Below, one piece after another: positions 3,684 through 18,341 of a DNA stretch of 63,751 nt. Both the position numbers and the translations under genes were made by a program. Each line of letters opens with the position of its first letter. The first letter of the stretch is position 1. The notes below the pieces were generated by a model that saw only the letters and a program-made list of their open reading frames with translations, was not told the origin of the DNA and did not search any database. Origin of the DNA: Vibrio sp. 10N.286.49.B1 (GTDB lineage Bacteria; Pseudomonadota; Gammaproteobacteria; Enterobacterales; Vibrionaceae); assembly GCF_002873335.1 (NCBI RefSeq), contig NZ_MCUW01000089.1, positions 262,551 through 326,301 of the forward strand, in the 5' to 3' direction.

Positions 3684-3713
3684 AGACATCAAGTACGGTC
3701 AGCAATGAATGGA

Positions 3714-4715
3714 CTAGAAATCGAAAAGCATACTAAGAAAAACATCTCTGTCCGCTGGGGAAACGTCTCGATGAGTCGTGTACTCCACGTGTGAGTCCAC
3801 CGTCGCGGAAGGCGATAACTTAATGCTCCACAGCGCTTTAAGCTGGTTAGGAACCATTGAATATCGCACATCCATAATACTCAGTTCATCGGTGGGGTCT
3901 TGCGCTAAAAATCCGTTTGAGAACCAACGGAAGCGCTCAATATCTTGGGCTTGTTGCGAATTCGGGTCAAGCCATGGGAAGTCTCGATTCACGTCCAACT
4001 TTGCGATAGATTCACCAGGGTATGTTTTCACCGAGGTGCCCACCCTCACCGCGTCAACATAATACTGCTGGTCTGTTTCATAAATCACTTTCCATACCAA
4101 AATATTAGCGAAGCTTGGTTTGGCTTCCAGCAAGATAGGCTCGTGCTGCCGTTCTTTTGCTAATTGCCAACCAGCAGCTTCAGCCCTGTCTTTTTGTATT
4201 AGCCCCAGCGTTGGATAAGTCAACGCCCAAAGAAACGCAATACGAGCAAACCAAGGGGTTCGCTTCCACGTTGCCAATACGAGCAATATGAGTATTGGAA
4301 GTGTGTATATAGGATCGATAATAGATATATTGTTCCAGGCATAACGCTCATTAGTGAACGGCCAAAACAACTGGGTACCATAAGATGTGCAGGCATCAAG
4401 CAGCGCATGAGTGCTGTAGCCTAACGCGCAATAGAGCCAACTTTGTTTGAACGAGAGTCCGCGTTTTTTTGCGAACAGTAAATGTAAAACTAACGCGCAA
4501 ATTAAACTGCCAATGGGGATAAAAAACAAAGAGTGCGTGAACTGTCGATGGAACTCCAAAAACAGCAGCGGGTCACTTGATGATTGAATGAGAACATCCA
4601 AGTCTGGCGCCATTCCAGCAAGCAGCCCCAGCAGCCCCGCCACTAGCATGTGTTGCTTTTTACTCACCGATTGGGACAACGATGCGCCCAGCACTCCCTG
4701 CGTTAATGGGTCCAT
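3714..4715 (-). CDS. YdjM-like membrane-bound metal-dependent hydrolase
   Basis: 333 residues. The N-terminal half matches the YdjM/YfhO-type DUF457 family: MDPLTQGVLGA at the start, PDLDVL near residue 42 and HRQFTHSLFF near 56, where the Asp and His residues are the presumed metal ligands. Four or five membrane segments follow up to about residue 165. The second half is soluble and less conserved, with Trp-rich segments. Family members are inner-membrane proteins of uncertain function; E. coli YdjM is LexA-regulated. No clear LexA box was seen upstream here. The ATG at 4715 fits the family N-terminus. Confidence 0.75.
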   Translation of the reverse strand: MDPLTQGVLGASLSQSVSKKQHMLVAGLLGLLAGMAPDLDVLIQSSSDPLLFLEFHRQFTHSLFFIPIGSLICALVLHLLFAKKRGLSFKQSWLYCALGYSTHALLDACTSYGTQLFWPFTNERYAWNNISIIDPIYTLPILILLVLATWKRTPWFARIAFLWALTYPTLGLIQKDRAEAAGWQLAKERQHEPILLEAKPSFANILVWKVIYETDQQYYVDAVRVGTSVKTYPGESIAKLDVNRDFPWLDPNSQQAQDIERFRWFSNGFLAQDPTDELSIMDVRYSMVPNQLKALWSIKLSPSATVDSHVEYTTHRDVSPADRDVFLSMLFDF

Positions 4716-4928
4716 AATTAACTCATTGATAGTTTTCGATTAAGTCGCTCATCATCTTAGAGTAGACCCATTTCGGTGAATTGGAATAGATTGATGGCAT
4801 AGACATTGGATACGTTGAGCAAAGTGCTTATGCGTTTAGTGCCCTCATCTTATGTGTAAAGGGACAAATATATAAAGAACGACATATATAAAGAAACAAA
4901 CGCATCAATGCGTAACCCTAGAGCGCCG

Positions 4929-6011
4929 CTACAACTGATATAACATCACCAAGCTTAACTTTTCCTGATAAGACTCGATAAGCTCTAGCTTGGTTTTCCC
5001 TTCATTGTGGTAAAACAGCGCCCCCTGATCCTTCAGGACCGGGTAAAATTCATCGATCATATCGAGGACGGCATTAACACGTTGGATTGTAATCGGCGTG
5101 CAGCTCTTACCATCAAGGTCGTCTTCAATATCTAAGACATGTGAGCGAAACATCTCTAATGTAAATAGTTTTTCTAGCGCCTCATCGCTCTCAAGCGCTG
5201 CTCGGTATTGGTCTCTTAGTCGCTCTGTAAAGTCGATGACTTCAAGACTGGCATGGTTACCTTGTAGCCAAGCCTGCTTTTCTTCTAACGCATTCATTGC
5301 GGCTTGTTTGACACGGCGAAATGCCTCTAACGATTGTCGATGCGAATGGCCCTGCTCTAATACCCATCCCGAGAAAAATCGGGTTTCAAAGCGCTCACAG
5401 AATTGGAAACGAGGATCATCCACCCCATTACTGTTCAGCTCAGTCAGTGGGTCAAAGGGATACATATAGCCAAAATCAAACAACCACAGCTGCTGGTTAT
5501 CATCACTCAATAAATTCCCAGAGCACAAATCCCACTCGAACAGTCCAATCCTTTCACACGCACTTAATGTAGAAAATAGCTGCGACAGGAGTGAAGGCGT
5601 AAGTTGTTTTATTGGTTCACCCTCAATCCAATCAGATAAAATAATACCAAGGCGATAGTCTGCATATACCGTTTCAACAATGCACTTGAACGACTCTGAC
5701 GTCTCGGGATCATCCTTAACCTTTTGAAAATCAGAACGACGTTGCACCTCATTAAGGAACGAGAACTGACCATCTAAATTTTTTACACGGGCGACTGGGC
5801 GTTTTTTCTTTAACGTGAAGTCTTTGCCATCAAGACGGATCCGATAAACCTCGGCCGTCAGCCCACTATCGAATGTTTGAATGACATAAGGAGACTGACT
5901 AGAGGTTAAGGCCAATTCCTCGGGCGATATCGGGCAATGGTTGAGGTGGCCAACAACCAGATTGTCACCGCTTTTTTCAAACTGCCACTGTGCTTGATGA
6001 CGCTTATTCAT
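4929..6011 (-). CDS. Protein-kinase-fold phosphotransferase, uncharacterised
   Basis: 360 residues with a reduced kinase/APH-like fold. FTLKKKRPVARVKN (about 76-89) could carry the ATP-binding Lys. WDLCSGNLLSDD (about 160) looks like the catalytic loop with an Asp-x4-Asn spacing, and LFDFGYMYPFDP (about 178) supplies a DFG-like metal-binding motif. It therefore probably phosphorylates a small molecule or protein in the cytoplasm. The C-terminal third is helical. It is monocistronic, with divergent genes upstream. The family was not recognised with certainty. A RIO/YihE-like or aminoglycoside-phosphotransferase-like protein is possible, and it could be read together with the nearby AAC(3)-like gene only speculatively. 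Confidence 0.55.
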   Translation of the reverse strand: MNKRHQAQWQFEKSGDNLVVGHLNHCPISPEELALTSSQSPYVIQTFDSGLTAEVYRIRLDGKDFTLKKKRPVARVKNLDGQFSFLNEVQRRSDFQKVKDDPETSESFKCIVETVYADYRLGIILSDWIEGEPIKQLTPSLLSQLFSTLSACERIGLFEWDLCSGNLLSDDNQQLWLFDFGYMYPFDPLTELNSNGVDDPRFQFCERFETRFFSGWVLEQGHSHRQSLEAFRRVKQAAMNALEEKQAWLQGNHASLEVIDFTERLRDQYRAALESDEALEKLFTLEMFRSHVLDIEDDLDGKSCTPITIQRVNAVLDMIDEFYPVLKDQGALFYHNEGKTKLELIESYQEKLSLVMLYQL

Positions 6012-6374
6012 ACCTTCAATCCCTGATGACCGTTCCGTTACAAGGACTGTACAAAAAATTCATGCATTGCATATCACCCTTACTGACATAATTTAAGGCT
6101 TAGCGTTTAGGCATATGCAGGTAAGACGGTTTGGGGCATTAACAAGTTAATGCGTGACATCGACATTGATTAAAGCGATATGTTTGAATCTTTACTCTTA
6201 ACGTTAAAAGCGTAAGACCATAATAACTATGCCACCCCTAAAGCTTCTGCCTTTAATCGTCCTAATATATTATCTGCTCCGTCATTAGTGACTTGGTTGA
6301 ATGGCATCTATCTGGCATCATGCGCCAACAAGCGCCGTGGTCAATGAACGGTACAGAGAATGCGAAGGTAGCCA
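6012..6374. other. Divergent intergenic region, no gene seen
   Basis: This 363-base spacer separates the kinase-fold gene and the dioxygenase gene, which are transcribed away from each other. It should contain both promoters. I see no strong operator, RNA structure or coding remnant in it. Confidence 0.4.
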
Positions 6375-7175
6375 GTGGTAGAAAACAGCCAACAATTAAA
6401 GAACCGTTACGACGAACAGGGCTACTTTGTTCTCAGAAGTTATTTTGATGACGCTCAGCTTTCATCGCTTAGAAAAGTGGTACTGAAATTTCATGACCGG
6501 TGGAAAGCCGACAATGAAGAATTCTATCAAGAAGAAGCATTTAACTCGTCTTTAATTACGGGAAGCGAATACTTACCCACCGGCGATAGAACGATACTTT
6601 TTGACTTCATCAGCTCAAAAAAAATGATGGACGTCGTCGATGCGGTGATCCCGGAAAACCCAGCGTTCATGAACACACAACTGTTCTTCAACCCTGTCAA
6701 TCCGCAACAAAAAGACTTCTGGCATCGTGACTGTCAATATGACTATGACGTTGAAGACCAAATGAGAGTCATACTAGAGACGCAAGTATTACACCTTCGC
6801 GTCCCCTTATTTGATGAACCCGGAATGGAAATCATACCCGGGACGCATAAGCGATGGGACAACGAAGAAGAGTACAACGTTCGCCAAGAAGTGAATGGCA
6901 AAGTGAGCAGTGATAGCCTCTCTGGTGGCAAGCAGATTGCATTAGCAGCGGGCGACTTGTTAGTGTTTTCAGCGGATATGATTCACCGAGGACGGTACGG
7001 ATTAGATCGTTTGGCTTTGGATATTTTGATTTTTGATTCTGCGTCTGACTATGTCGACTACGTCGATGACGATTGCTTACCTACTTCGTCAATACTCAGC
7101 AATATCGCCAATCCAAGGCTATTTATGAATACACTGCATCTCAAGTCGAGGTGTCATGAACATGAACAACGTTAG
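6375..7175 (+). CDS. Phytanoyl-CoA dioxygenase (PhyH) family protein
   Basis: 266 residues, typical for Fe(II)/2-oxoglutarate dioxygenases of the PhyH family, which hydroxylate lipids, amino acids or secondary metabolites. The N-terminus (YDEQGYFVLRSYF) is the standard family opening. The iron triad is visible: FWHRD near residue 117 supplies the HxD, and MIHRGRYG near 203 supplies the distal His plus the Arg that binds 2-oxoglutarate. MEIIPGTHKRW near 153 is the usual strand before it. The start is GTG, followed by a second GTA codon, and no better ATG lies near. It is an orphan gene whose substrate cannot be inferred from its neighbours. Confidence 0.82.
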   Translation: MVENSQQLKNRYDEQGYFVLRSYFDDAQLSSLRKVVLKFHDRWKADNEEFYQEEAFNSSLITGSEYLPTGDRTILFDFISSKKMMDVVDAVIPENPAFMNTQLFFNPVNPQQKDFWHRDCQYDYDVEDQMRVILETQVLHLRVPLFDEPGMEIIPGTHKRWDNEEEYNVRQEVNGKVSSDSLSGGKQIALAAGDLLVFSADMIHRGRYGLDRLALDILIFDSASDYVDYVDDDCLPTSSILSNIANPRLFMNTLHLKSRCHEHEQR

Positions 7176-7391
7176 ACAGTATTAAGCGACACGTGTGACG
7201 ACATAAATCAATTCAAACACAATCATAAAATTGGCCGCTTTATATTTCTATGTAGGGTGGCCATTCGCAGCTAAATTGAAATATGTATTGATGATTATCG
7301 ATAAATCCTGCTAATTTAATAGACCACTAACATTACAGCGGCGTATCGGTTGTAATTGTTTTTAAATTGTTATCACACGGATGTTCTACCC

Positions 7392-8330
7392 ATGCTCGCA
7401 AAAATTATTACCCTATTCCCACTTTGGGCAATCCTTTGCTCAATCATTGCCTTCTTTATCCCTGCACCTTTTGCGTCTCAGAGTTCGTTAATCGTGCCTT
7501 TGTTGACCGTCATTATGTTGGCTATGGGGCTAACCTTACAGCCAGCCGACTTCTTAAAGGCGATTAAAAATAAAAAAGCGGTCGGCTTGGGTCTAGTGTT
7601 GCAATTTACTGTCATGCCGACAGCAGCATTACTGATTAGCATGATGCTAAACTTCTCTCCGGAATTAACACTCGGCATGGTCTTGGTGGGTACGGTTGCA
7701 GGTGGCACCTCTTCAAATGTGATGTGCTATTTAGCAAAAGGCGACGTCGCTCTTTCTATTACCATGACGGCACTGTCCACATTCTTAGGGGTAATCTTAA
7801 CGCCGTTCATTATTGAATTGATTATGGGTCAGAGTGTGGATATTCCAGTCCTCGGAATGATTCAAAGCCTCTTTAAGATTGTGTTCTTACCTGTGTCGAT
7901 TGGTGTTTTGTGTAATGTCTTTTTCCATAAAGTGGTAAGTAAGGTTGAGCCGTTGCTACCGCTGATTTCTATGATTGCGATTGTTCTAATTGTTGCCATT
8001 GTGGTTGCCCTAACGGGAAGTAAATTAGCGGCGGTAGGACCTATCGTCATGCTCGCAGTCATTCTACATAATGGCTTTGGTCTGACGGCCGGTTACTTTA
8101 TTTCTAAGGCTATGGGGTTTGAAGAGAAGGTGTGTCGCACCATCGCATTTGAAGTGGGTTTGCAGAATTCAGGCTTAGCAACCGCGTTAGCGTTAAAGTT
8201 CTTTACTCCTGCATCAGCGGTGGCGGGTTCACTGTTTTCCGTTTGGCACAATATATCGGGCTCTATCGTCGCGGGATACTTTTCAAAGAGATCGCCTAAA
8301 GAGCCTGATCCATTGAAAGTCAGTGATTAA
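7392..8330 (+). CDS. Bile acid:sodium symporter (BASS) family transporter
   Basis: 312 residues with about ten membrane segments. The two conserved Na+-site regions of the family are visible: GGTSSNVMCYLAKGD around residue 107 and EVGLQNSGLATAL around residue 256. BASS proteins import organic anions (bile acids, pyruvate, pantoate and others) with Na+; the substrate here is not known. A TTG-initiated extension back to 7356 is possible, but its first dozen residues are polar and atypical, so the ATG at 7392 is preferred. The gene is monocistronic and converges on the HAD gene across a hairpin. Confidence 0.82.
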   Translation: MLAKIITLFPLWAILCSIIAFFIPAPFASQSSLIVPLLTVIMLAMGLTLQPADFLKAIKNKKAVGLGLVLQFTVMPTAALLISMMLNFSPELTLGMVLVGTVAGGTSSNVMCYLAKGDVALSITMTALSTFLGVILTPFIIELIMGQSVDIPVLGMIQSLFKIVFLPVSIGVLCNVFFHKVVSKVEPLLPLISMIAIVLIVAIVVALTGSKLAAVGPIVMLAVILHNGFGLTAGYFISKAMGFEEKVCRTIAFEVGLQNSGLATALALKFFTPASAVAGSLFSVWHNISGSIVAGYFSKRSPKEPDPLKVSD

Positions 8331-8359
8331 ATCACGTTAATTTAGTTATCAGCGCGTAT

Positions 8360-8388
8360 TATCAAGCTCCTTTTTCAAGGGGCTGATA
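8360..8388. terminator. Hairpin between convergent genes
   Basis: A stem with one bulged A pairs TATCAAGCTCCTT with AAGGGGCTGATA. It sits between the BASS gene and the HAD gene, which converge. It has no long T run, so it may be a bidirectional but weak terminator. Confidence 0.35.
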
Positions 8389-8450
8389 GCGCCTTGTAGT
8401 AATGTGAAATATGCCAAAACTGGTTATTCGTGACTAGAAGTCGAACATAA

Positions 8451-9128
8451 TCAGTCATTGGCATTAGAATCATAAGTAAGTTTCCAGCTTTGTTTACTCA
8501 CTCTATCCACTGAGAGATGGCGGTAATTGTCAGCTCCAAAGTCTACACTCAGTGCAGATAAAGTAGCATGGCTTAAGATACCAAAAACGCTCGCACCTGC
8601 ACTCTTTGCCGATGTCACACCAGCGATAGCATCTTCAAATACAATGCACTTATCAGGCTTAACACCCAATTTTTTTGCACCTAACAAGTAAGGCTCTGGA
8701 GCAGGCTTTCCGCACGTGACGTCTTCAAATGTAACGAAAACGTTAGGAATCGGAATACCACCAGTCTTCATTCTCGCTTGAGCAACATCGATATTGCATG
8801 ATGTCACTATACCCCACGGGATTTGATTTTGGTCTAGGGTCGCCAAGAACTCGAGAGCACCCTCAATGGCTACGACCCCGTTGGTATCATTAGCTTCTTG
8901 GTCTTTTAACCATTCAATCTCTTTTTCAATCGTGGATAATGACTGATTGCGAAGCAGATCTCTTACACATCCGTCAGCGGTCCTTCCGTGAATAACACTC
9001 AACACATACTCTACGTCCAATTGATATTTCGATGCCACTTGGCCCCACGCTCGATTAACGGACTCTATCGAGCTTACCAATGTTCCATCAAGATCGAATA
9101 AACAACCCGCAAAATTTAGTTCTGTCAT
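8451..9128 (-). CDS. HAD-superfamily sugar-phosphate phosphatase
   Basis: 225 residues, subfamily I HAD with a helical cap. Motif I is LFDLDGTLV (about residue 11), motif II is the Thr/Ser in GIVTSC (about 108), motif III is CGKPAPEPYLLGAKKLG (about 145) with the catalytic Lys, and motif IV is VFEDAIAG (about 165). This pattern is that of YfbT/YniC-type sugar phosphatases or beta-phosphoglucomutase relatives. A clear GGGGAG site lies six bases before the ATG. It follows the SorC-type regulator by 56 bases on the same strand, so it is probably co-transcribed. It likely dephosphorylates an intermediate of the divergent PTS pathway, preventing sugar-phosphate stress. Confidence 0.85.
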   Translation of the reverse strand: MTELNFAGCLFDLDGTLVSSIESVNRAWGQVASKYQLDVEYVLSVIHGRTADGCVRDLLRNQSLSTIEKEIEWLKDQEANDTNGVVAIEGALEFLATLDQNQIPWGIVTSCNIDVAQARMKTGGIPIPNVFVTFEDVTCGKPAPEPYLLGAKKLGVKPDKCIVFEDAIAGVTSAKSAGASVFGILSHATLSALSVDFGADNYRHLSVDRVSKQSWKLTYDSNAND

Positions 9129-9184
9129 AAAAGGCTCCCCTAAGCCAACGTCGGTACGTATGTTGACAATGATTATTTCCGGAT

Positions 9185-10120
9185 CTAATTATCTAATAGA
9201 TACTTAGCCGTACCCTCATCGGTAATGAGAGTTGAAACCCACTCTCCTAGCAAACACGCTCGAATTGCTTTATGTTTATCATTGCCTCCAGCAATAGCGA
9301 TGACTTCAGGTATATTGCGGATGTCTTGAGGTTTTAGCGCCAAGCTCAATGAATCAGCACCGGTGACTAACTCATTACCATTAATATCAAGGATCACAGA
9401 GCACAGATCAGCCGTTGCACCTTTCGAGATCAGGTCTTCTCGATAGTGTGTAGAGATTGTTCCATACATCCCCGAACTTCCTTCTCCGCACCATGAACCA
9501 ATGCCGGTGATCAAAATATCTAACTTACTATAAAGCATGTGCAATTCTTGTATCGATGCTTCTAACTTCATGCTTTCAGCCGTTTCGACTTTCTCAAGCC
9601 ACATTGGTGCGAGCAAAGGGAAAGGGCGTCCATCCCCTAGTCCTGCGAGTCGATGTACTATTTCTAAAGAACTATGTCGAAAATTCATCCCTTCTTGTAC
9701 GCCTGCAGCTTGCACAACATTGCACTTGGGAAAGACAGTGAGCTTGTCTGCAATCGCAGAAAGTACTCGTCCAGAAGCAACACCTATATTGGCCACATTA
9801 GGCCCCAATTCTTGAAGTAACTCAGCACCAGTACTCGATAACGAATCAATAAGACTATCTGAGGCTAAGCTAGGGCTTGCGATAACAGTACAGTGCTTCA
9901 ATCTATATTTTTTTTCTAGCTCATCCGAAAGGTCAGTTCGGTACCCTTCTAAGTCTGGTATGACAAACTTCACAATACCGTTGTCCGTTGCTTCATCTAA
10001 TAACCTGGCAACCTTGAAACGAGAAAGACCAAATTCATCCGCAATCTGGTTTTTGGGCTTACCCTCTAGGTAGTGAGCCTTCGCGAGTTTGATAAGTTGT
10101 ATTTTTTTTAGTAGATCCAT
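9185..10120 (-). CDS. SorC/DeoR-type sugar-binding transcriptional regulator
   Basis: 311 residues. Residues 8-45 form the helix-turn-helix typical of the SorC family (HYLEGKPKNQIADEFGLS, then RFKVARLLDEA). The remainder is the sugar-phosphate-binding domain, with the NIGVASGRVLSAIADKL segment near residue 112 and late Gly-rich strands (VIAIAGGNDKHKAI near 270). Members bind a phosphorylated sugar and repress or activate adjacent catabolic genes. A GGAG site precedes the ATG. The gene faces the PTS operon, and palindromes GCTCATATGAGC and GCTCTTATGAGC lie at the two ends of the shared 331-base region, which suggests autoregulation plus control of the operon. Confidence 0.9.
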   Translation of the reverse strand: MDLLKKIQLIKLAKAHYLEGKPKNQIADEFGLSRFKVARLLDEATDNGIVKFVIPDLEGYRTDLSDELEKKYRLKHCTVIASPSLASDSLIDSLSSTGAELLQELGPNVANIGVASGRVLSAIADKLTVFPKCNVVQAAGVQEGMNFRHSSLEIVHRLAGLGDGRPFPLLAPMWLEKVETAESMKLEASIQELHMLYSKLDILITGIGSWCGEGSSGMYGTISTHYREDLISKGATADLCSVILDINGNELVTGADSLSLALKPQDIRNIPEVIAIAGGNDKHKAIRACLLGEWVSTLITDEGTAKYLLDN

Positions 10121-10149
10121 TCAGTACTTCTCCAAACACCACAGAAAGT

Positions 10150-10165
10150 CCGCTCATATGAGCAA
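10150..10165. promoter_or_regulatory. Candidate operator near the regulator start
   Basis: CCGCTCATATGAGCAA contains the perfect 12-bp palindrome GCTCATATGAGC, 30 bases upstream of the regulator ATG. It matches the site at 10420 in 15 of 16 bases. The intervening 10166-10419 is very AT-rich, with a half-site-like ACCGCTCATTTG at 10381 and GTGCTCATAAG near 10400, and no gene. Confidence 0.6.
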
Positions 10166-10419
10166 GTTAACATAATAATCAATATCTCCTAGTACTTTCA
10201 AACTTTTCAATTAAGTAAATTCAACTAATACCGAAAGAACCAAGCATAAGCATTTGTATTAAATGACAAATTATAAATAATTTGAATTTTAAAAATCCAA
10301 TAACAACATAGAATCAATTGAGTAATCGCACAATTAAAATGTGATGACCAATACAAAAACTCATAATCCGCATTGAAAACACCGCTCATTTGATTAATAG
10401 TGCTCATAAGTTAAATGAA

Positions 10420-10436
10420 TCCGCTCTTATGAGCAA
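10420..10436. promoter_or_regulatory. Candidate operator near the PTS operon start
   Basis: TCCGCTCTTATGAGCAA carries the near-palindrome GCTCTTATGAGC, 16 bases before the IIA start codon. It differs from the site at 10150 at one base. Overlap with the leader suggests repression by blocking polymerase or early elongation. Confidence 0.6.
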
Positions 10437-10451
10437 AAAACTGAGGTAACT

Positions 10452-10907
10452 ATGTATTTTGATAAAAAACTATCGTTTTTCAATGTGGAAATTACGGATC
10501 GAACAGAACTGCTTAAGTTCATGTCCGACAAACTACTAGAAGCTGGGTTCGTTAAGGATTCATTTCAAGAAGCGCTGCTCCAGCGTGAGGTTGAATATCC
10601 AACAGGATTAGAAGCAGCACACTGTGGCGTGGCGTTACCGCATACGGACTCAATACACGTCAATAACTCACAGGTTTGTTTTGTAAAACTTAAAACTCCG
10701 ATCAAATTCAGAGATATGGTTGACGCCAGTGAAGAGGTCGAAGTGCAATTTGTGTTCATGCTTGCGATGAAAGAAGCCCATGAGCAAATTGAAAACCTTC
10801 AAAACCTTACTCTAATGCTGGAAAGCGCTAGTACGGTTGAGAAATTACACACACTTCAAAACAGAGCTGAGTTTGAAGAGATATTAAGAGTTTCTAACTT
10901 AAAATAG
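10452..10907 (+). CDS. PTS IIA component, galactitol/fructose (mannitol) type
   Basis: 151 residues, the length of a stand-alone EIIA of the PTS_EIIA_2 family. The phosphoryl-accepting His is in GVALPHTDSIHV near residue 65, preceded by REVEYPTGLE, a hallmark of galactitol-type IIA proteins. It takes phosphate from HPr and passes it to the separate IIB. It is the first gene of a six-gene operon and starts after a GAGG site. The order IIA-IIC-IIB with separate polypeptides matches the Gat/Sgc class. The sugar is not determined by this subunit. Confidence 0.92.
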   Translation: MYFDKKLSFFNVEITDRTELLKFMSDKLLEAGFVKDSFQEALLQREVEYPTGLEAAHCGVALPHTDSIHVNNSQVCFVKLKTPIKFRDMVDASEEVEVQFVFMLAMKEAHEQIENLQNLTLMLESASTVEKLHTLQNRAEFEEILRVSNLK

Positions 10908-10916
10908 GATGAAATC

Positions 10917-12266
10917 ATGGAATTTTTGAGTTCTTTTTTTGAATGGGTTATCGGTTTAGGTGGCGTCGTTTTCCTACCTGTCATTATTGTGCTAATTGCA
11001 CTCTTTTTCCGAGTTCCACTACAAAAAGCAGTCATGTCGGGAATAACGGTTGGTATAGGTAGTGTTGGCCTAGGTTTAGTGATTACCTTACTTGCAAGTA
11101 CACTCGGTGAGGCGATTAAGGTCATGGGTGCAAAATATGGTACCGATCTCACCATATTAGACATCGGTGTTGGCGTAGGAGGCCCTCTCGCTTTCTCAAC
11201 ATCGTTAGGTCTATTGCTTATTCCAGTCTCTTTACTGCTTAACACCATGTTTGTCTCTTTTGGTTGGACAAAGACACTGAATGTTGATATCTGGAATTTT
11301 TGGTTCCCAATATTTTTAGGACTAATGACTTACGCAGTGACTGGACAATACTATATCGGTGTATTGGGTTGTATTGCCGGCATTATGCTCCAGTGGCTTC
11401 TGTCAGACATTTTCCAAAAACAAATTAGTGACTTTTATGGTTATCCGGGCATCGCAATTTCTCATTTGATGGCGTTAGCTGGCATGGTCGTCGCCGTTCC
11501 TCTCAATTGGATTTTAGATAGAACTCCAGTCATCAACAAAATGGATGCAGATCCTGAATCACTCACTAAGAAGTTTGGTATTTTCGGTGATTCTATTTTT
11601 ATGGGTCTACTCGTAGGTCTGGCCGTTGGTCTACTTGCAGGATACGACGCATCTCAGGTAGGTAACCTTGCAATTTCTACCGCAGCAGTAATGAAAATAA
11701 TGCCAAAAATGGTGGCGATGTTTATGGAAGGATTACTTCCAGTAGCGGAAGCCGCGAAAGAATATACAAACAAAAAGTTAGGTGGCAAAGAAGTCAACAT
11801 CGGTATGGATGCGGCTTTAACAGTGGGCCACCCTGCAGTAATGGCAACGGCATTATTAATGGTTCCTATTTCACTGTTATTAGCCGTAACCCTTCCAGGT
11901 AATAAAGTTTTACCGTTTGGCGACCTCGCGTTTTATGTTTTTGGCATTTGCTTAATGGTTCCTGTTTTTAAAGGAAATCTCGTAAGAAGTGTCATTGGCG
12001 GAACTATTTACTTAGCGATGTGTTTATACCTATCAACATGGCTTGCTCCAGAAATTACCAATGTATTTGCAATTGCTAATTACGATGTTGGCACCACAGG
12101 AGTGATTAGTGCAGTACTACTAGGCTTGTGGCCCGTCGGCTTGTTCGTTCTATTCGCAGTGAAGTTTGGCGTTATCGGTATCTTGGCACTAATTACCATG
12201 ATCTTCTGTGGATTGCTTTACGTGAACAAATTTAGAAAAACTACCCCAATTGAGGCAACAATATGA
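10917..12266 (+). CDS. PTS IIC permease, galactitol (GatC/SgcC) family
   Basis: 449 residues, similar in length to GatC and SgcC. It has about ten membrane segments and the GatC-type features FLPVIIVLIALFFRVPL near the start, the VGVGGPLAFSTSLGL loop near residue 80 and ALTVGHPAVMATALL near 300. It forms the membrane channel for a hexitol or related sugar, which is phosphorylated on entry. A nine-base gap with AGGATG separates it from IIA, and it overlaps IIB by four bases, so the three subunits are translationally coupled. No known PTS sugar specificity can be assigned from sequence alone. Confidence 0.9.
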   Translation: MEFLSSFFEWVIGLGGVVFLPVIIVLIALFFRVPLQKAVMSGITVGIGSVGLGLVITLLASTLGEAIKVMGAKYGTDLTILDIGVGVGGPLAFSTSLGLLLIPVSLLLNTMFVSFGWTKTLNVDIWNFWFPIFLGLMTYAVTGQYYIGVLGCIAGIMLQWLLSDIFQKQISDFYGYPGIAISHLMALAGMVVAVPLNWILDRTPVINKMDADPESLTKKFGIFGDSIFMGLLVGLAVGLLAGYDASQVGNLAISTAAVMKIMPKMVAMFMEGLLPVAEAAKEYTNKKLGGKEVNIGMDAALTVGHPAVMATALLMVPISLLLAVTLPGNKVLPFGDLAFYVFGICLMVPVFKGNLVRSVIGGTIYLAMCLYLSTWLAPEITNVFAIANYDVGTTGVISAVLLGLWPVGLFVLFAVKFGVIGILALITMIFCGLLYVNKFRKTTPIEATI

Positions 12267-12547
12267 AAACTTTATTAGTCGTGTGTGGTGCAGGCCACGC
12301 AACATCAACATTAGCCGTCAGCAAAATCAATAAATGGATTGAAGAAACAAAGCAGACAGGAACCATCAAAATCATTCAAAGCAAAATCGCTGATGAACTA
12401 AACCGAATTGATGATTACGATGCAGTAGTAAGTACAACCATCGTTCCAGATTCTATCAAGTCTAAGGTTATTGTGGGCTTGCCACTATTGACGGGAATTG
12501 GTATCAATTCTGTATTTGATCAAATTGCTGAACGTTTAAAGGGGTAG
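12263..12547 (+). CDS. PTS IIB component, galactitol type
   Basis: 94 residues, standard for a free GatB-type IIB. The phosphorylated Cys lies in the P-loop VVCGAGHATSTLA (Cys near residue 8), and a Rossmann-like fold follows. It receives phosphate from IIA and gives it to the incoming sugar at IIC. Its ATG overlaps the IIC stop by four bases. The active-site loop has His where GatB often has Val or Ile, which could reflect a distinct subclass. Confidence 0.9.
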   Translation: MKTLLVVCGAGHATSTLAVSKINKWIEETKQTGTIKIIQSKIADELNRIDDYDAVVSTTIVPDSIKSKVIVGLPLLTGIGINSVFDQIAERLKG

Positions 12548-12551
12548 TCAC

Positions 12552-13070
12552 TTGGAACTGATATTTAATTCATTAAATATCACCACAGCAAAAGGACGCC
12601 CGTCTTACCACGACCTCACATCAGATCTTTCGGAGTTAATCCGAAAGTCTGGTGTGGTGAATGGTGTCTTAACTGCAACGACTCCTCATACAACATGCTC
12701 TTTTTTCTTTGAAGAAGAAATGCATGATTTGGATAGTAATGGTGATGATTTTCTTCAACTGGACTTTAATGCCACGCTAGATCGTATAGCACCTATACAG
12801 GCAACCCATAACCAGTTTAAAAGTCCGGGGCCGGAACATATAAAGTTTGGTTTGTCTCTTGCAGATCCTAACTACCCTGCAGAAAAATGGGTCATGTACA
12901 ACACAGATGCTCACATTAGAGCATCCATGTTTGGGCAGCACTCATTGCAAGTTATTGTAAAAGAGGGCAAAGCGTTGATGGGGGCATTAGGGCGTGTCTA
13001 TTTCGCTGACTGGGATACATTGAGGGAACGACAGCGTGATGTAAACGTGGTCGTTATGGGGGTGGTATGA
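12552..13070 (+). CDS. YjbQ/UPF0047 family protein
   Basis: 172 residues of the YjbQ family. The typical segments are TTPHTTCSFFFEEE near residue 44, the HNQFKSPGPEHIKFGLSLADP region near 85, and HIRASMFGQHSLQVIVKEG near 115. Conserved His residues in these segments form the putative active or metal site. E. coli YjbQ has weak thiamine-phosphate-synthase activity, but its cellular role is unsettled. The start is TTG, supported by AAGGGG upstream in the IIB tail. It sits between PTS IIB and an epimerase with four-base overlap to the latter, which argues for a role in the sugar pathway rather than in thiamine synthesis. That role is inference. Confidence 0.88.
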   Translation: MELIFNSLNITTAKGRPSYHDLTSDLSELIRKSGVVNGVLTATTPHTTCSFFFEEEMHDLDSNGDDFLQLDFNATLDRIAPIQATHNQFKSPGPEHIKFGLSLADPNYPAEKWVMYNTDAHIRASMFGQHSLQVIVKEGKALMGALGRVYFADWDTLRERQRDVNVVVMGVV

Positions 13071-13726
13071 TGAAAATATACCCATCCTTATACAGCAGTA
13101 ATCACCTTAGTTTCGGTGAAACTTTAGAGCGACTTTCGAATATCAATATGAAAGACATTCACATTGATATTATGGATTGCAATTACGTGCCTTCATTTGG
13201 CATTACGTATGACGCAATCAAGGCTATCCAGGAAAAATTTGATCTCCGATTAGATTGCCATTTAATGGTAGATAATCCTGAGTGGCATATTGATAAGCTG
13301 ATTGCATTGAATGTTGATACTATTTGCTTAACTTACGGTACCACCAACAATGATTTTTATTATCTAGAGAAAATCGTCCAATCTGGTTTGCGCTGTGGTG
13401 TGGCAGTGAACCCCGGAACAACGATTGAATCTCTCGTTGATTTACTTGATATCGTAGATGTCGTATTGGTGATGAGCGTTAACCCAGGGCAACCTAATCA
13501 ACGTTTTTTACCTCGCATAAACAATAAAATACGACGACTTTTTGAATTGAGAGAACAAAAAGGTCTCACATTTAAAATTCAAATAGACGGTGGTATTAAC
13601 GTCGATAATATTTCATCAGTGCAAGCCTCTGGCGCAGATATCGTAGTGTGCGGAGGGTCGTTGTTCTCAAATGGTCACATTGAAGAAAACGCGTATAGAT
13701 TAGAAGGCCTAGCGCATGGAATATAA
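13067..13726 (+). CDS. Ribulose-phosphate 3-epimerase family protein (AlsE/SgcE-like)
   Basis: 219 residues forming a TIM barrel of the RPE family. Metal ligands are visible: HIDIMDC near residue 31, DCHLMV near 64 and QIDGGIN near 168. Two conserved loops deviate. The usual MDGHFVPN reads MDCNYVPS, and the phosphate-side loop normally ending NPGFGGQ reads NPGQPNQ. Such changes point to a substrate other than ribulose-5-phosphate, as in allulose-6-phosphate epimerase or SgcE. Its start codon overlaps the YjbQ stop, and its end overlaps the SIS gene by 11 bases. Inference: it converts a ketose phosphate made by the PTS route into its C3 epimer. Confidence 0.85.
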   Translation: MMKIYPSLYSSNHLSFGETLERLSNINMKDIHIDIMDCNYVPSFGITYDAIKAIQEKFDLRLDCHLMVDNPEWHIDKLIALNVDTICLTYGTTNNDFYYLEKIVQSGLRCGVAVNPGTTIESLVDLLDIVDVVLVMSVNPGQPNQRFLPRINNKIRRLFELREQKGLTFKIQIDGGINVDNISSVQASGADIVVCGGSLFSNGHIEENAYRLEGLAHGI

Positions 13727-14288
13727 GGTTATAAATAATCAGATATTTGAACAGGTCCATAATGCGGTTAATGAGATTGAAGACAAGACATTAGATTTAC
13801 TCATCGAAAGCCTCGAGCCTAAGAAGAGAGTCTTTTATTATGGCTGCGGTCGGTCTGGTATTTTCTTATCGTCATTTGCTAATAGACTTCTACATTTAGG
13901 TTTTGAGATTTACTCACTTAACGATATCACGAAACCAAAAGCAGAAGCTGGCGATATTTTCCTGGTCACCAGTGGCTCAGGAGAAACGTCGAGTGTCGTG
14001 AGTTTTGTCTCTAAGTCCAAAAATATAGGGATGAAAATAATAGCGTTCAGTGCTCAACAACAGTCATCAATGGCATCTTTATTGACTGCAGATGACGCTC
14101 TGGTTGTTATCCCTTGTGACTCATACATCGATGATGCGATCCCCGATATCCGTGACCTTAAGATGCCTTTAGGGACATTGTTCGAGTTATCGTGTTTAAT
14201 GGCTTACGAAACTGTCACTAATTCATTAATGTATCACTTAGGTGAGTCTGCGTATGCACTGTCATGCAGACATACAAATTTAGAGTAA
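13716..14288 (+). CDS. SIS-domain sugar-phosphate isomerase, HxlB-like
   Basis: 190 residues, a single SIS domain with the length of 6-phospho-3-hexuloisomerase. Motifs are YYGCGRSGIFLSSFANRLLHLG near residue 41 and LVTSGSGETSSVV near 87, which bind the phosphate. MPLGTLFELSCLMAYE near 150 is the typical HxlB helix. HxlB interconverts 3-hexulose-6-phosphate and fructose-6-phosphate, usually paired with hexulose-phosphate synthase. Here there is no synthase but an epimerase-like protein upstream. It is the last gene of the PTS operon, with a terminator following. Likely role (inference): feeding the operon's product into fructose-6-phosphate. Confidence 0.83.
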   Translation: MEYKVINNQIFEQVHNAVNEIEDKTLDLLIESLEPKKRVFYYGCGRSGIFLSSFANRLLHLGFEIYSLNDITKPKAEAGDIFLVTSGSGETSSVVSFVSKSKNIGMKIIAFSAQQQSSMASLLTADDALVVIPCDSYIDDAIPDIRDLKMPLGTLFELSCLMAYETVTNSLMYHLGESAYALSCRHTNLE

Positions 14289-14656
14289 TCATAAGCCCTG
14301 TTCTTATATTCTTATTCGATACTCTCCCGCTATTATTTTGCGTATCCATATAAGTCATATTGCCCTTATCATTAAAAATGAGGGCTTTTCTCACTAACCT
14401 AAAGTGTTCCAATTGATCAAAATGGTTCGCTTGAGCGCTCCTACCCCCTCATAAATACCATTAACGCACAATGTAGATTCACCTACTTCATCCAACCCTC
14501 TACTGGCAAGTATCTTGTCGTCCTCATCTACACCCCAAAAATAACAAAAAATTATCATTAATATAATTTATGATAATTTCTATTAATTAACGCATACCCA
14601 TATACTCTCTCCATCGAAACAAAACATCGAAACAAACATTGAATTTGGAGCAAGTT
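14289..14656. other. Gap between PTS operon and VOC gene
   Basis: This 368-base region holds the terminator at 14362, then AT-rich sequence up to the GGAG site six bases before the VOC gene. No coding remnant was recognised. Confidence 0.4.
14362..14390 (+). terminator. Rho-independent terminator of the PTS operon
   Basis: GCCCT(T)ATCAT and ATGAGGGC form a stem around a short A-rich loop, followed by TTTTC. It lies about 73 bases after the SIS gene stop. Confidence 0.6.
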
Positions 14657-15142
14657 ATGAAAATGAATCACGTAGGTATCATGGTTGGCGATATGGACAA
14701 AGCTGTCGAGTTCTACACTCAGGCTCTAGGTCTTAAAATCGTAATGAATAACACTAAAGTTATTGAAGAGCGCGAATCGGCAATTGGCCGTATGTGTATT
14801 GCCGTATTTGGTGAAGGCTTTAAAGGTTTTAACATTGCACACCTTGTCACATCTGACGGCATCGGCGTTGAAATGTTCGAAATGAAAGAACGCCAAGAGC
14901 GGCACGAGGTTGATTTCTCTCGCTTAGGTATCTTCCACTTCTGTCTACAAACCGACGACTTTGAAGGCGTGATGGCGAAAGTAGAGAAGTTCGGTGGCAA
15001 AGTACGCATGGACGTTATGCGTTACCACCCTGAAGACGACAGCAAACAGGCGAAAATGGTTTATCTAGAAGACCCGTTTGGTAACTTGTTCGAACTATAC
15101 TCACACACATACGAAGAAACATACGCGACTGATTACGAGTAA
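14657..15142 (+). CDS. VOC/glyoxalase family protein
   Basis: 161 residues with two VOC beta-alpha repeats. MNHVGIMVGDMDKAVEFY at the start supplies the first metal His, IFHFCLQTDDFE near residue 96 the second, and YLEDPFGNLFELYSH near 134 the C-terminal Glu. These metal-dependent enzymes include glyoxalase I, dioxygenases and isomerases; the precise reaction is unknown. The ATG at 14657 has GGAG six bases upstream and gives the family N-terminus, so it is preferred over a TTG 18 bases earlier. The gene is monocistronic and ends in a strong terminator. Confidence 0.85.
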   Translation: MKMNHVGIMVGDMDKAVEFYTQALGLKIVMNNTKVIEERESAIGRMCIAVFGEGFKGFNIAHLVTSDGIGVEMFEMKERQERHEVDFSRLGIFHFCLQTDDFEGVMAKVEKFGGKVRMDVMRYHPEDDSKQAKMVYLEDPFGNLFELYSHTYEETYATDYE

Positions 15143-15164
15143 CAACACGTAATCGCGCAACCCC

Positions 15165-15202
15165 ACTAAAAAGGATTGGTAGAAATACCAATCCTTTTTA
15201 GT
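15165..15202 (+). terminator. Long perfect terminator hairpin
   Basis: A 17-base arm beginning ACTAAAAAGGATTGG pairs exactly with its complement around a GAAA tetraloop. The descending arm contains a T run. It terminates the VOC gene and would also work on the other strand. Confidence 0.8.
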
Positions 15203-15283
15203 ATTTCTGGAGAAGTGCAGAGATAGCGCTTAATTGAACAGAAACCTCTAAGCATGTCACGCCTTAACCCATTCCAATTAGGT

Positions 15284-15402
15284 CGTCACCCTTGGAAAGC
15301 GAGGCTATTCCGACGCCTCTGAATCACTTAAAAGAAAAAACTAAGTGCCAGTCATCGACTCACAACACGCGGATGAAGATCCCCTTTTCCAAGGGGATGA
15401 CG
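15284..15402. repeat. Intergenic repeat unit, copy 1 (degenerate left end)
   Basis: The unit starts GTCGTCACCCTTGG and ends GATCCCCTTTTCCAAGGGG followed by ATGACG, with an internal hairpin CCCCTTTTCCAAGGGG. Flanking sequence is also shared with copy 2: CCCATTCCAATTAGG before, and TTTGTCATATGGAG after. The GTCATCC...GGATGAC ends are inverted, as in small non-autonomous or ERIC-like elements. Confidence 0.7.
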
Positions 15403-15511
15403 GGTTGTATTTGTCATATGGAGTAACGCGCCAAAATCTGTTGTGCGTATTCAGACCCAATCACGGATATAGAGCTCTTAAGTTATCACTTTAACCCCAT
15501 CCCAATTAGGC

Positions 15512-15629
15512 CGTCATCCTTGCGAAAACAAGGATCTCACAAAACGCGTGACTCACTTAAATAAAAACTAAGGGTTAGGAATCGGCTCACAACGCGCGGA
15601 TGAAGATCCCCTTTTCCAAGGGGATGACG
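15512..15629. repeat. Intergenic repeat unit, copy 2
   Basis: A direct repeat of 15284-15402, with better-kept ends: CGTCATCCTTGCGAAAACAA on the left and AAGGGGATGACG on the right. Together the two copies fill most of the 15203-15802 gap, in which no gene is seen. Similar sequences recur between Vibrio genes, to my recollection. Confidence 0.7.
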
Positions 15630-15802
15630 AGTTATGTTGTGTTTGTCATATGGAGCAACGCGTCAATACCTGTTGGATGACGATGATTTTGACTTATGGG
15701 GGCGGTCACATGCCAAACACGAATATTGATAACCTTTTGGTTACCCTTCCATCCTTACACTTCTTCGATAACGACAATCATTAAGCTCAATCAGGAGAAG
15801 AG

Positions 15803-16237
15803 ATGAAACTATTCGCATCGCTACTAACCACCATGCTCATCGCAGGTACTATTTGGGGGGCGGTACTTATGCAACCCGTAATGGCCGAAAGCTCATCAAA
15901 GACAAAAACGTCAAAAAACGCAGAAAAAACAACTACTATTCAACAGGTTAATAAAAAATCATCGACTAACAACAAAACGTATATCCATAGTGTCGTCACC
16001 AAGAATATCTCATTAGATGCCAATGCCGTCGCTGCACTTTGGGTTGAGTTTGAAGATAAGATCACGAAGCAAGAGAACCTACCTGAGACACTTGATCGCC
16101 TTGTGGTGATCTATCAGAACATGAGTGACAATTTTAGTCATGCCACCGTCAGCATTGGTTTTCCCGTCGAGGCGAGCACTCAGAAAGACGGCTATATTGA
16201 ACTTATCTCCAGTGCACAAGGGCAACAGTTATTGTAA
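15803..16237 (+). pseudogene. Truncated exported protein with GyrI-like (effector-binding) domain
   Basis: 144 codons. Residues 1-28 look like a signal peptide or anchor (cut near VMA/ES), followed by a Lys/Thr/Ser-rich linker. From about residue 60, the segment with ALWVEFEDK and HATVSIGFPVE resembles the first half of an AraC effector-binding (GyrI-like) domain. The domain stops abruptly after SSAQGQQLL, where its second half should follow. Immediately after comes the second half of an unrelated radical SAM gene in another frame. A single deletion that fused the two genes explains both. The remaining open frame could still be expressed. Confidence 0.6.
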
Positions 16238-16239
16238 AG

Positions 16240-16769
16240 CGATCGAACCACTTAAGATGAGCTTCTATGGCGAAACGACCGTGTTAATCGCGCGTGACAA
16301 AGCGTTGCTGAATGCGGCAGCGAAAGCAGGATTCAAAGCCGTGCTGTTAGGGATAGAAACCCCATCAGAAGAAGCTCTGAAAGCGCAGAAAAAAGGGTTT
16401 GTGAAGCCATCAAAAATGAAAGAGCACATTGCTGAAATAAAGCGTCATGGCATCGAAGTGTGGGGAGACTTTTTGTTCGGCTTTGATGAACACGACGCGT
16501 CAATATTTGAGCAAACCCAATCGTTTGTTAAAGAGATTAAGGTTGATAAGGTGATCCCGCACTATATGATCCCGTTCCCGGGTTCAGAGACGTTTAATCA
16601 ACTTGATCAAGAAGGACGTATTCTGACCACAGACTGGTCAAAATACGATGGCAGCCATCCTGTGTATCAACCTAAACATATGACGGTGAATGAGCTTGAA
16701 GACGGCATCGCTTGGATTTGGAGCAAAAATGCCAGCTTGAAAGAAAAGATGGCAGCATGGTTTGGGTAA
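16240..16769 (+). pseudogene. 3' half of a radical SAM (B12-binding type) gene
   Basis: About 176 codons from PLKMSFYGETTV to the stop match the later part of the radical SAM barrel found in B12-binding-domain methyltransferase-like proteins: LLNAAAKAGFKAVLLGIETP, then EVWGDFLFGFDEHD and HYMIPFPGSETF. The N-terminal B12-binding region and the CxxxCxxC iron-sulfur motif are absent. The frame stays open upstream to 16125, but those residues overlap the preceding gene in another frame and look non-homologous. The catalytic core is therefore missing and the gene is almost certainly dead. Confidence 0.75.
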
Positions 16770-16784
16770 ACATACCAACAAGTT

Positions 16785-17123
16785 TTAATCGTTACGTTCA
16801 GAACGATTTTCAGCCACGATGTCTGAATCTTTCTGAGCGTAAAAATCGACTCTAAAACTCGTGTCATCAGACATAAATTCCACTTTATGCCAATACTCAG
16901 GTGGCGAGATAGCGAATCCAGCTTGCTCAATGATTATTTCTTGTTCCACTTCACCACGCCTTTCAGTAAAGCCGTAAAACTTTAAGGAACCGCTAATCAC
17001 GTTAATTTTTCCATAAACGCCCGCACGAGTATTATGCAAATGCAGGAACATTTTAGGGATGTTATCAGGCGTAAACACTGGCGTTGATTTATAGTTCACA
17101 AAGTCTGTTGGGATGACGGGCAT
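16785..17123 (-). CDS. DUF1971 (TehB-associated cupin-like) protein
   Basis: 112 residues starting MPVIPTDFVNYKSTPVF. This is the DUF1971 family, small beta-barrel proteins that also occur fused to the N-terminus of tellurite-resistance methyltransferase TehB. NTRAGVYGKINVISGSLKFYGF near residue 32 and SPPEYWHKVEF near 74 are the recognisable parts. An upstream ATG at 17159 adds 12 atypical residues, so 17123 is preferred. No TehB is adjacent. It may bind a small ligand; the function is unknown. Confidence 0.75.
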   Translation of the reverse strand: MPVIPTDFVNYKSTPVFTPDNIPKMFLHLHNTRAGVYGKINVISGSLKFYGFTERRGEVEQEIIIEQAGFAISPPEYWHKVEFMSDDTSFRVDFYAQKDSDIVAENRSERND

Positions 17124-17567
17124 AAATAGCTCACTTCTTAAATATACGTAACTGACCATTGATTACTATTAATATAGACCTGTAATAAGTAAGCACAAGC
17201 GAGGTCTTCGACTGCCGCCGCTAGCGTGGTATTACAATTACGCTCAACGGGTACATTCGTTGTCTGTACCAAACCGCGAACCATGAAGACAAAGCGCATG
17301 CTGCTGTTATTGCACACACTCACTTTGCTCTTTTGATTCTGCTAGACGTTGGCTGTATACCGCATAATCGTTATGACCCCGATGTCACTTTACTGTTTTC
17401 CGACCATTTATCCCTTTCCATTAATCTATTTCTTCGCTTTCTAAGTACAAGTTATTAATAATTCGATGTAAATCGCTCTCTTTATCGGATTGTTGTCTAC
17501 AGTTTTATGGGGCTTACTATTGCGGTAGTGACGAATAAAAGACACTTTTTAATTGCAGGGAAAAGAA
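17124..17567. other. Intergenic region before the ABC operon
   Basis: About 440 bases. A minus-strand frame of 61 codons exists at 17138-17323, but I could not assign it and it lacks a convincing start site. The right part must carry the promoter of the ABC operon, whose first gene is preceded by AGGGAAAAG. Confidence 0.3.
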
Positions 17568-18341
17568 ATGAAAAGTCCAATTGTCACACTCGAGCATGCC
17601 AGCAAAAGCTTTGTTGATGGCAAGGAAACCCATCGGGTATTGGAAGGTGTCGACTTCACTCTTACCACAGGCGCTAGTGTCGCTTTGACCGGCGCCAGTG
17701 GCAGCGGTAAAAGCACGCTACTCAATATCATCGCGGGGTTTGAACCACTTTCAGATGGTGAGTTGTGGTTAGATGGCGATCACTCTGCAGGCTGGAAAGA
17801 TCCTCAATGGAGCCGCTTCCGCTATCAAAAGCTGGGCGTTATCTTCCAACAATTCAATTTATTGACGCCACTCAACGTTAAACAAAATATCGCCTTCCCC
17901 TTGCACTTAAACCAACAGGCATGGTGCGATTGGTGTGATTACTTGGTGGAAGCGTTAGGCATCAGTCAATTGCTTAATCGACATGTTTCTGCCCTTTCCG
18001 GTGGCCAGCAGCAACGGGTTGCGATCGCTCGAGCGTTAGCCCACAGGCCTAAATTACTGCTTGCCGATGAGCCCACAGGAAACCTAGACCAAAAAGCAGG
18101 ATTAGAGGTGATGAAACTACTGAGCGAAATCACAACGCAAGGTAATACGGCCGTACTTTTGGTCACGCACAGTGCCGAGTGCGCCAAATTTATGCAGACA
18201 CAACTCGTATTAGATAATGGCCGCTTGACTAACGCGTGCTTAAATAACGCTTACTTAGATAACGCTCGCTCGAACGCCGCTCAACAACAAAATCATGACA
18301 CCAAGCAGCAAAACCTCGAGCAACGCCATGAAGCCAAATAA
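17568..18341 (+). CDS. ABC transporter ATP-binding protein (LolD/MacB class)
   Basis: 257 residues. Walker A is [10 protein letters not shown] near residue 40, the Q-loop FQQFNLL near 95, the signature [15 protein letters not shown] near 142 and Walker [13 protein letters not shown] near 163. The class is that of LolD, FtsE and MacB, which energise FtsX-type permeases. The C-terminal 35 residues are an Asn/Gln-rich tail with repeats of LNNAYLDNA type, unusual for the family. The ATG at 17568 has AGGGAAAAG upstream. It overlaps the permease gene, so the pair forms one transporter, probably acting on lipoproteins, lipids or peptides at the inner membrane. Confidence 0.88.

Follow-up and report, generated by a model that had tools for sequence, protein, structure and literature searches.

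A Gat-type PTS operon joining a long YjbQ protein, a divergent epimerase and an HxlB-like isomerase in Vibrio sp. 10N.286.49.B1

The sgc cluster of Escherichia coli K-12 (sgcR, E, A, Q, C, B, X) encodes the IIA, IIB and Gat-type IIC components of a phosphotransferase system (PTS) together with an epimerase-family protein, and it was with this cluster that a first-pass annotation compared the subject of this report, an operon found within a 63,751-nucleotide stretch of the Vibrio sp. 10N.286.49.B1 genome (contig NZ_MCUW01000089.1; the whole stretch is referred to below as the window). The operon joins a Gat-type PTS to a long protein of the YjbQ/UPF0047 family, a relative of ribulose-phosphate 3-epimerase (RPE) and an HxlB-like SIS-domain isomerase, and looks like a dedicated, uncharacterised sugar-phosphate pathway. 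We put at about 40% the probability that it serves the catabolism of a single sugar, which would be rearranged by the SIS enzyme and the epimerase to fructose-6-phosphate; the reactions, their order, the substrate and the regulation are what we infer from sequence.

The likeness to sgc proves to be a loose one. PTS subunits and an epimerase-family protein are shared, but in the tree SgcE sits far away on a long branch, separate from the epimerases of this gene set, and the sgc operon includes SgcQ and SgcX while lacking genes for SIS and YjbQ proteins. SgcQ and SgcX, which were sought in the operon only, have no counterpart in the window operon, and both operon content and tree set it apart from a system defined by an SgcE-type epimerase, SgcQ and SgcX. 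The E. coli D-allose operon, through AlsE (D-allulose-6-phosphate 3-epimerase), shares the epimerase family and its catalytic residues but has an ABC transporter and a kinase and no PTS, and AlsE has a longer beta8 loop and the usual lid. In the HxlA/HxlB ribulose monophosphate pathway the SIS enzyme has the same core motifs; the window genome, however, encodes no HxlA above cut-off, and its SIS protein carries Asn56 in place of Met and belongs to a separate tree group. Tetrulose-phosphate pathways use the TIM-like isomerase EryH, and TIM-family genes adjoin long YjbQ genes in related loci, though not in the window operon. The D-arabitol pentitol PTS of Bacillus methanolicus, atlABCD, likewise has Gat-type IIA, IIB and IIC; unlike the window operon it includes polyol-phosphate dehydrogenases, and the available part of its description mentions no YjbQ, epimerase or SIS protein (PMC6685057).

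The locus had been called undescribed-looking. This holds in that a limited literature search found no characterised pathway with this gene set, but the novelty is provisional, and the set recurs in many genera, its genes having already been annotated piecemeal.

Gene content and recurrence

All eight open reading frames (ORFs) between 8451 and 14288 are intact and each scores above its curated Pfam cut-off, bearing out the composition first proposed, a PTS operon with YjbQ, epimerase and SIS genes under a SorC-type regulator with a HAD phosphatase. All positions are window coordinates, and the genome searched comprises 5.15 Mb in 89 contigs.

8451..9128, minus strand: HAD-family sugar phosphatase-like protein, 225 amino acids (PF13419/HAD_2 88.3 bits; NF008610, sugar phosphatase, 213.7, below the cut-off of 282)
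9185..10120, minus strand: SorC/DeoR-type sugar-binding regulator, 311 amino acids (PF04198/Sugar-bind 155.3 bits; best NCBIfam model 130.5, below the cut-off of 420)
10452..10907, plus strand: PTS IIA, fructose/galactitol type, 151 amino acids (PF00359/PTS_EIIA_2 122.3 bits)
10917..12266, plus strand: PTS IIC, Gat type, 449 amino acids (PF03611/EIIC-GAT 219.0 bits; TIGR00827 368.1, below the cut-off of 542.2)
12263..12547, plus strand: PTS IIB, 94 amino acids (PF02302/PTS_IIB 34.2 bits)
12552..13070, plus strand: long YjbQ/UPF0047 protein, 172 amino acids, TTG start (PF01894 69.8 bits, cut-off 27; TIGR00149 63.4, just below the cut-off of 67.75)
13067..13726, plus strand: ribulose-phosphate-3-epimerase-like protein with catalytic residues intact and lid altered, 219 amino acids (PF00834/Ribul_P_3_epim 172.2 bits; AlphaFold2 model, predicted local distance difference test score (pLDDT) 94.8)
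13716..14288, plus strand: HxlB-like SIS-domain isomerase, 190 amino acids (SIS_2 43.8 bits; TIGR03127 134.8, below the cut-off of 160)

The phosphatase and regulator genes run opposite to the IIA-IIC-IIB-YjbQ-epimerase-SIS series. These six plus-strand genes are tightly packed, with overlaps of 4 bases (IIC/IIB), 4 bases (YjbQ/epimerase) and 11 bases (epimerase/SIS) and gaps of 4 bases (IIB/YjbQ) and 9 bases (IIA/IIC), which suggests a single transcript. The joint presence of PF00359, PF02302 and PF03611, all above their Pfam cut-offs, identifies the transporter as a Gat-type PTS; since the IIC protein falls below the galactitol cut-off of TIGR00827, this does not point to galactitol as the substrate. 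Elsewhere in the genome are genes for a housekeeping Rpe (303.3 bits) and for a short YjbQ of canonical type (141.1 bits).

A neighbourhood search in other genomes, suggested with the first description, shows that the gene set recurs. A protein search with the long YjbQ gave 165 relatives at E <= 1e-10, and the 120 of them listed include proteins of Gilliamella, Orbus, Clostridium, Aerococcus, Globicatella and Lactobacillus. Scanning genome contigs with a 25-sequence long-YjbQ alignment yielded 32 loci, ten of which are Gilliamella by record title, so that the loci are not independent events. Neighbours were counted within 6 kb each side of YjbQ at 31 of these, L034 being left out because its YjbQ was not re-detected. 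A Gat-type IIC lies near the long YjbQ in 29 of the 31, an epimerase in 26 and an HxlB-like SIS protein in 25; KpsF/GutQ-like SIS proteins occur at 11, TIM-family proteins at three, a SorC-type regulator at one and PRD-type regulator hits, some of them weak or on the opposite strand, at 26. At two Shinella loci the count missed a YjbQ that tblastn and NCBIfam both detect, the ORF overlap filter being the supposed cause. The commonest gene order is IIA-IIC-IIB-YjbQ-(KpsF-like)-epimerase-SIS, although in four Lactobacillus loci (L026-L029) the epimerase gene is on the opposite strand. The set is thus found in similar order in bee-gut, lactic-acid and Enterococcus bacteria.

The long YjbQ was found in 12 of 394 sampled genomes of the taxonomic order (2 of 114 genera) and matched in 6 of 196 genomes of the genus, the match in G073 being weak and partial; the window-type set was seen in one of the 196.

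The epimerase and the SIS enzyme

The words first used for the two enzymes, 'divergent' for the epimerase and 'HxlB-like' for the SIS protein, are apt, both falling below the curated equivalog cut-offs. The window epimerase has the fold of the RPE superfamily and its catalytic His/Asp/His/Asp. With NCBIfam models it scores 177.5 against the 212.6 of the rpe equivalog and 154.5 against the 271 of the AlsE equivalog, whilst passing the broad subfamily NF004076 (189.4, cut-off 165); its AlphaFold2 model matched RPEs and AlsE about equally.

Residues were compared between 28 epimerases of the set and 124 others, an unbalanced sample (119 of the 120 nearest relatives listed, the window's own excluded, and five more) that limits the weight of the contrast. 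Ser7, His32, Asp34, His65 and Asp174, the catalytic residues, are retained in 28/28 set epimerases. The aromatic residue of the lid (Phe, Trp or Tyr) is present in 0/28, against 122/124 others, and the lid Gln in 4/28, against 124/124; residue 10 is Asn or Asp in 20 of the 28 and Ser in eight, where 120 of the 124 others have Ser or Ala. With the lid PGQPNQ, the window enzyme has neither the PG(F/W)xGQ lid nor the rpe equivalog score of a housekeeping RPE. The beta8 loop, which Chan et al. (2008) reportedly showed to set the preference for pentulose or hexulose substrates, is of RPE length in 28/28 set epimerases and 121/124 others; the three exceptions, with a loop one residue longer, are E. 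coli AlsE, an AlsE-like gene of Lactobacillus and P0272. By this rule the window epimerase does not qualify as an AlsE, its beta8 phosphate loop having six residues against seven. RPE and AlsE are promiscuous, however, and loop length therefore does not exclude the AlsE reaction.

In the epimerase tree 25 of 26 set members form one clade (support 98/94), a result tempered by a bootstrap that had not settled and by the long branch of the window epimerase. We read the enzyme as one that has retained its catalytic machinery around what appears to be a rebuilt pocket, probably neither an ordinary RPE nor an AlsE.

For the window SIS protein the best NCBIfam model is that of HxlB (6-phospho-3-hexuloisomerase, TIGR03127), yet it falls short of the cut-off; some relatives pass, such as that of an Enterococcus locus (L006, 196.2 bits). 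It has the HxlB motifs GRSG, RLxHLG, SGSGET, P(L/M)GxxFE and C-terminal NLE, as drawn from our alignment. Asn56 is found in 29/29 members of its group (P0002 and P0025 being counted in from tree position alone) and in 0/22 others, 20 of which have Met. Five HxlBs encoded beside an HxlA-like gene, or in fusion with one, are set apart from the group with 100/100 support; these come from gammaproteobacterial genomes and score above the TIGR03127 cut-off, their HxlA partners being judged from sequence start. Another HxlB-like protein, L071, falls inside the group, and a single clade is not rejected by the approximately unbiased test (p-AU 0.334), which is not to say shown. L071 (1498-2052, a gammaproteobacterium; 148 bits against 160) is encoded next to an FGGY-like sugar kinase gene, as judged by sequence start, and is one more HxlB-like enzyme that does not belong to the formaldehyde pathway.

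That HxlB is the nearest NCBIfam model might suggest fixation or release of formaldehyde by the ribulose monophosphate route. We consider this exceedingly improbable, given the separation of the SIS group from the HxlA-linked enzymes and the lack of a synthase: across the whole genome no hexulose-phosphate synthase (TIGR03128) exceeds the cut-off, the best match reaching 129.2 against 200 bits, in agreement with the original claim that the synthase is missing and that this is not the formaldehyde route. That best match adjoins a gene that we take to encode a UlaE-like protein, and so is probably an ascorbate-pathway decarboxylase.

Candidate sugar-phosphate routes

As the operon has no dehydrogenase or kinase, its sugar is likely to be at the aldose or ketose oxidation level. 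In the catabolic route that we favour, the Gat-type PTS would take up and phosphorylate this sugar, the long YjbQ would carry out an early step, most likely isomerisation or anomerisation of the sugar phosphate, the HxlB-like SIS enzyme would shift the ketone between C2 and C3 and the epimerase, an RPE relative of presumably changed specificity, would invert the carbon adjoining the ketone, with fructose-6-phosphate as the end product. The HAD enzyme may offer relief from excess sugar phosphate. A KpsF/GutQ-like isomerase, added in 11 of the 31 loci, is what would be expected of a sugar-phosphate isomerisation route. Several findings weigh against this reading. Scoring below the curated HxlB, RPE and AlsE cut-offs, the SIS protein and the epimerase could catalyse reactions different from those of the named families. 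Gln150 and Gln158, conserved in 93% of the SIS group, are Met and Leu in the window enzyme. The one set epimerase not in the clade, that of L024, comes from a locus without a SIS gene.

A more specific version, which we offer as a long shot, makes the SIS/epimerase pair a funnel turning D-configured 2-ketohexose-6-phosphates into fructose-6-phosphate. The SIS enzyme would shift the ketone from C2 to C3, erasing C3, the epimerase would invert C4 of the resulting 3-hexulose-6-phosphate and the SIS enzyme would then shift the ketone back, so that tagatose-, sorbose- or allulose-6-phosphate could be converted to fructose-6-phosphate without kinase or aldolase, YjbQ serving as entry isomerase or anomerase. 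Keto C3, epimerised C4 and phosphate C6 are spaced just as keto C2, epimerised C3 and phosphate C5 are in ribulose-5-phosphate; a phosphate loop of RPE length alongside a rebuilt lid and residue 10 would then be accounted for. The step from altered pocket to epimerisation at C4 is reasoned from geometry and leans on earlier work: Chan et al. (2008) on the AlsE loop, YcjR as an example of an enzyme that epimerises C4 next to a C3 ketone and EryH as one of ketone shifting. The pair may represent a new way to convert rare ketose phosphates to fructose-6-phosphate, and a funnel with YjbQ as entry enzyme would, if true, give the YjbQ family its first physiological role.

Simpler chemistry is offered by an allose- or allulose-like route, in which the PTS would deliver an aldo- or ketohexose-6-phosphate, the SIS enzyme or YjbQ would interconvert aldose and ketose and the epimerase would perform the AlsE reaction at C3 to give fructose-6-phosphate. 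The epimerase does match the AlsE model (154.5 bits) and, by sequence and fold, AlsE 3ct7, but its beta8 loop argues otherwise: none of the set epimerases (0/28) has a loop of AlsE length, whereas an AlsE-like gene close to Lactobacillus locus L026 does. Nor would this route call for an HxlB-type enzyme that shifts a ketone between C2 and C3. Epimerisation of a hexulose-6-phosphate at C3, the step proposed in the first-pass annotation, is a possible reaction but fits less well with an RPE-length loop in every set member, and we think this route unlikely.

The same loop suits a pentose route, in which the PTS would take up a rare pentose or pentulose, a SIS isomerase would yield a pentulose-5-phosphate and the epimerase would form xylulose-5-phosphate for the pentose-phosphate pathway. 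RPEs are the nearest solved structures by sequence and fold, and the KpsF/GutQ-like family represented at 11 loci includes arabinose-5-phosphate isomerases. The genome already has a housekeeping Rpe, though, an ordinary ribulose-5-phosphate epimerase should have no use for the changed lid and residue 10, and HxlB-type chemistry would be left idle; the pentose route, too, is in our view doubtful.

On the favoured reading of a dedicated one-sugar operon, the SorC-type regulator would act at two palindromes and sense a sugar phosphate. The candidate sites, and a terminator-like element, are as follows.

10149..10165, no strand assigned: operator-like palindromic element on the regulator side, 17 bases, repeat family D1
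10420..10436, no strand assigned: operator-like palindromic element on the operon side, 16 of 17 bases the same as the first copy, repeat family D1
14362..14385, plus strand: terminator-like hairpin followed by a T run, 3' of the SIS gene

The 17-base element, TCCGCTCATATGAGCAA, contains a perfect 12-base palindrome. Its two copies bracket the divergent promoter region and a third, 76% alike, lies at 10381-10397. Exact matches to a 15-base core are confined to these two sites in the whole genome; one further site appears when one mismatch is allowed, and a reversed control pattern has two. Hairpins with a T run number nine within the window, against 4.7 expected from shuffles. Just 3' of the operon (14639-15142) lies a gene for a 'glyox_marine'-type glyoxalase-family protein (179.1 bits, below the cut-off of 262) that is matched in 50 of 61 sampled genus genomes, in contrast to the operon.

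The long YjbQ and its other settings

By Pfam and fold the long YjbQ belongs to the YjbQ/UPF0047 family: its AlphaFold2 model (pLDDT 90.0) has the UPF0047 fold, and the 17 structures matched at E <= 0.001 are all YjbQ-like. It carries an insertion of its own relative to the solved members, and the 25-sequence alignment has 36 invariant columns. YjbQ was found in 10 of 14 control genomes. In E. coli, according to a 2021 review, YjbQ is of 'unknown function', and yjbQ is one of the genes that relieve a pdxB block on overexpression (PMC7954711). This description sits poorly with a role in thiamine synthesis, to which the operon position would be incidental. Such a role is raised by the name of TIGR00149, 'secondary thiamine-phosphate synthase', a model that the window protein narrowly fails; as the long form has a conserved insertion, stands repeatedly beside sugar genes and coexists with a canonical YjbQ in the same genome, we rate the idea as very improbable.

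YjbQ/UPF0047 proteins are widespread, and sugar phosphates are the common setting of this distinct long form, whether at PTS/epimerase loci, at loci with an aldolase and a TIM-family protein or beside an FGGY kinase in Shinella. That the enzyme is common to differing gene sets points to action on a sugar phosphate formed early, and its reaction could be searched for with a short substrate list; isomerase or anomerase is a guess drawn from the company the gene keeps. One relative, P0135, has PTS IIB and long YjbQ fused in one ORF, a single sequence and possibly an artefact.

In the genus genomes G119, G050 and G104 the long YjbQ belongs to another set, with Gat IIC-IIB, a class II aldolase and a TIM-family protein; Pfam was used to check this set in G119 and at a second locus in the window's own genome, and G167 was seen only as a short locus with a gene-length pattern like that of this set. 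The second locus (L046, G000:C78:109000-128500; 6324-10463) comprises Gat IIC-IIB, class II aldolase, TIM-family protein, YjbQ and IIA, with a GntR/FCD regulator gene close by, and represents another sugar pathway that has this form of YjbQ. TIM-family genes beside long YjbQ in related loci belong to the PRK04302 subfamily (above cut-off in 6/6 tested).

A tblastn search with the long YjbQ matched 160 of 72,556 plasmid records (152 Enterococcus, five Shinella and three Lacticaseibacillus). The Enterococcus faecium set is annotated as a regulator-sized PTS IIA-named protein (a PRD regulator by comparison), IIA, IIC, IIB, YjbQ, rpe and hxlB. One copy (L077, 4935-10773, NZ_OR095733.1) is matched by 146 Enterococcus plasmid records, all at 99% or more, 140 of them over at least 80% of its length; the best matches listed have an insertion sequence element inside the matched stretch. 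One E. faecium plasmid record carries no annotation for IIB and YjbQ, and an L. paracasei plasmid carries a variant with an extra SIS gene. Several of the E. faecium plasmids with the set are listed as coming from blood, wound or rectal swabs, and, as a conjecture from the many plasmids that carry it, the sugar may matter for the gut life of the species. Shinella sumterensis has a distant YjbQ (29.9% identity) whose neighbours bear the annotations SDR, sugar phosphate isomerase/epimerase, triose-phosphate isomerase and FGGY kinase, a context in which the tie of YjbQ to sugar phosphates needs no PTS.

A Gemella metagenome-assembled genome (L014, 125-5620) joins the long YjbQ to a Gat PTS, a TIM-family protein and two zinc dehydrogenases, one of which has galactitol-1-phosphate 5-dehydrogenase as its best model, below cut-off. 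In Vagococcus elongatus (L021, 5126-10513) genes for a Gat-type IIC, a GFO/IDH/MocA dehydrogenase, an AgaS-family SIS protein and a CutC-like protein all lie 5' of the long YjbQ. In Lactobacillus kullabergensis the L026 region (3597-18510) has the appearance of an island for rare sugars: it contains two sets of Gat PTS genes, two genes of KpsF/GutQ-like type, RpiB-type genes and the AlsE-like epimerase whose beta8 loop is longer.

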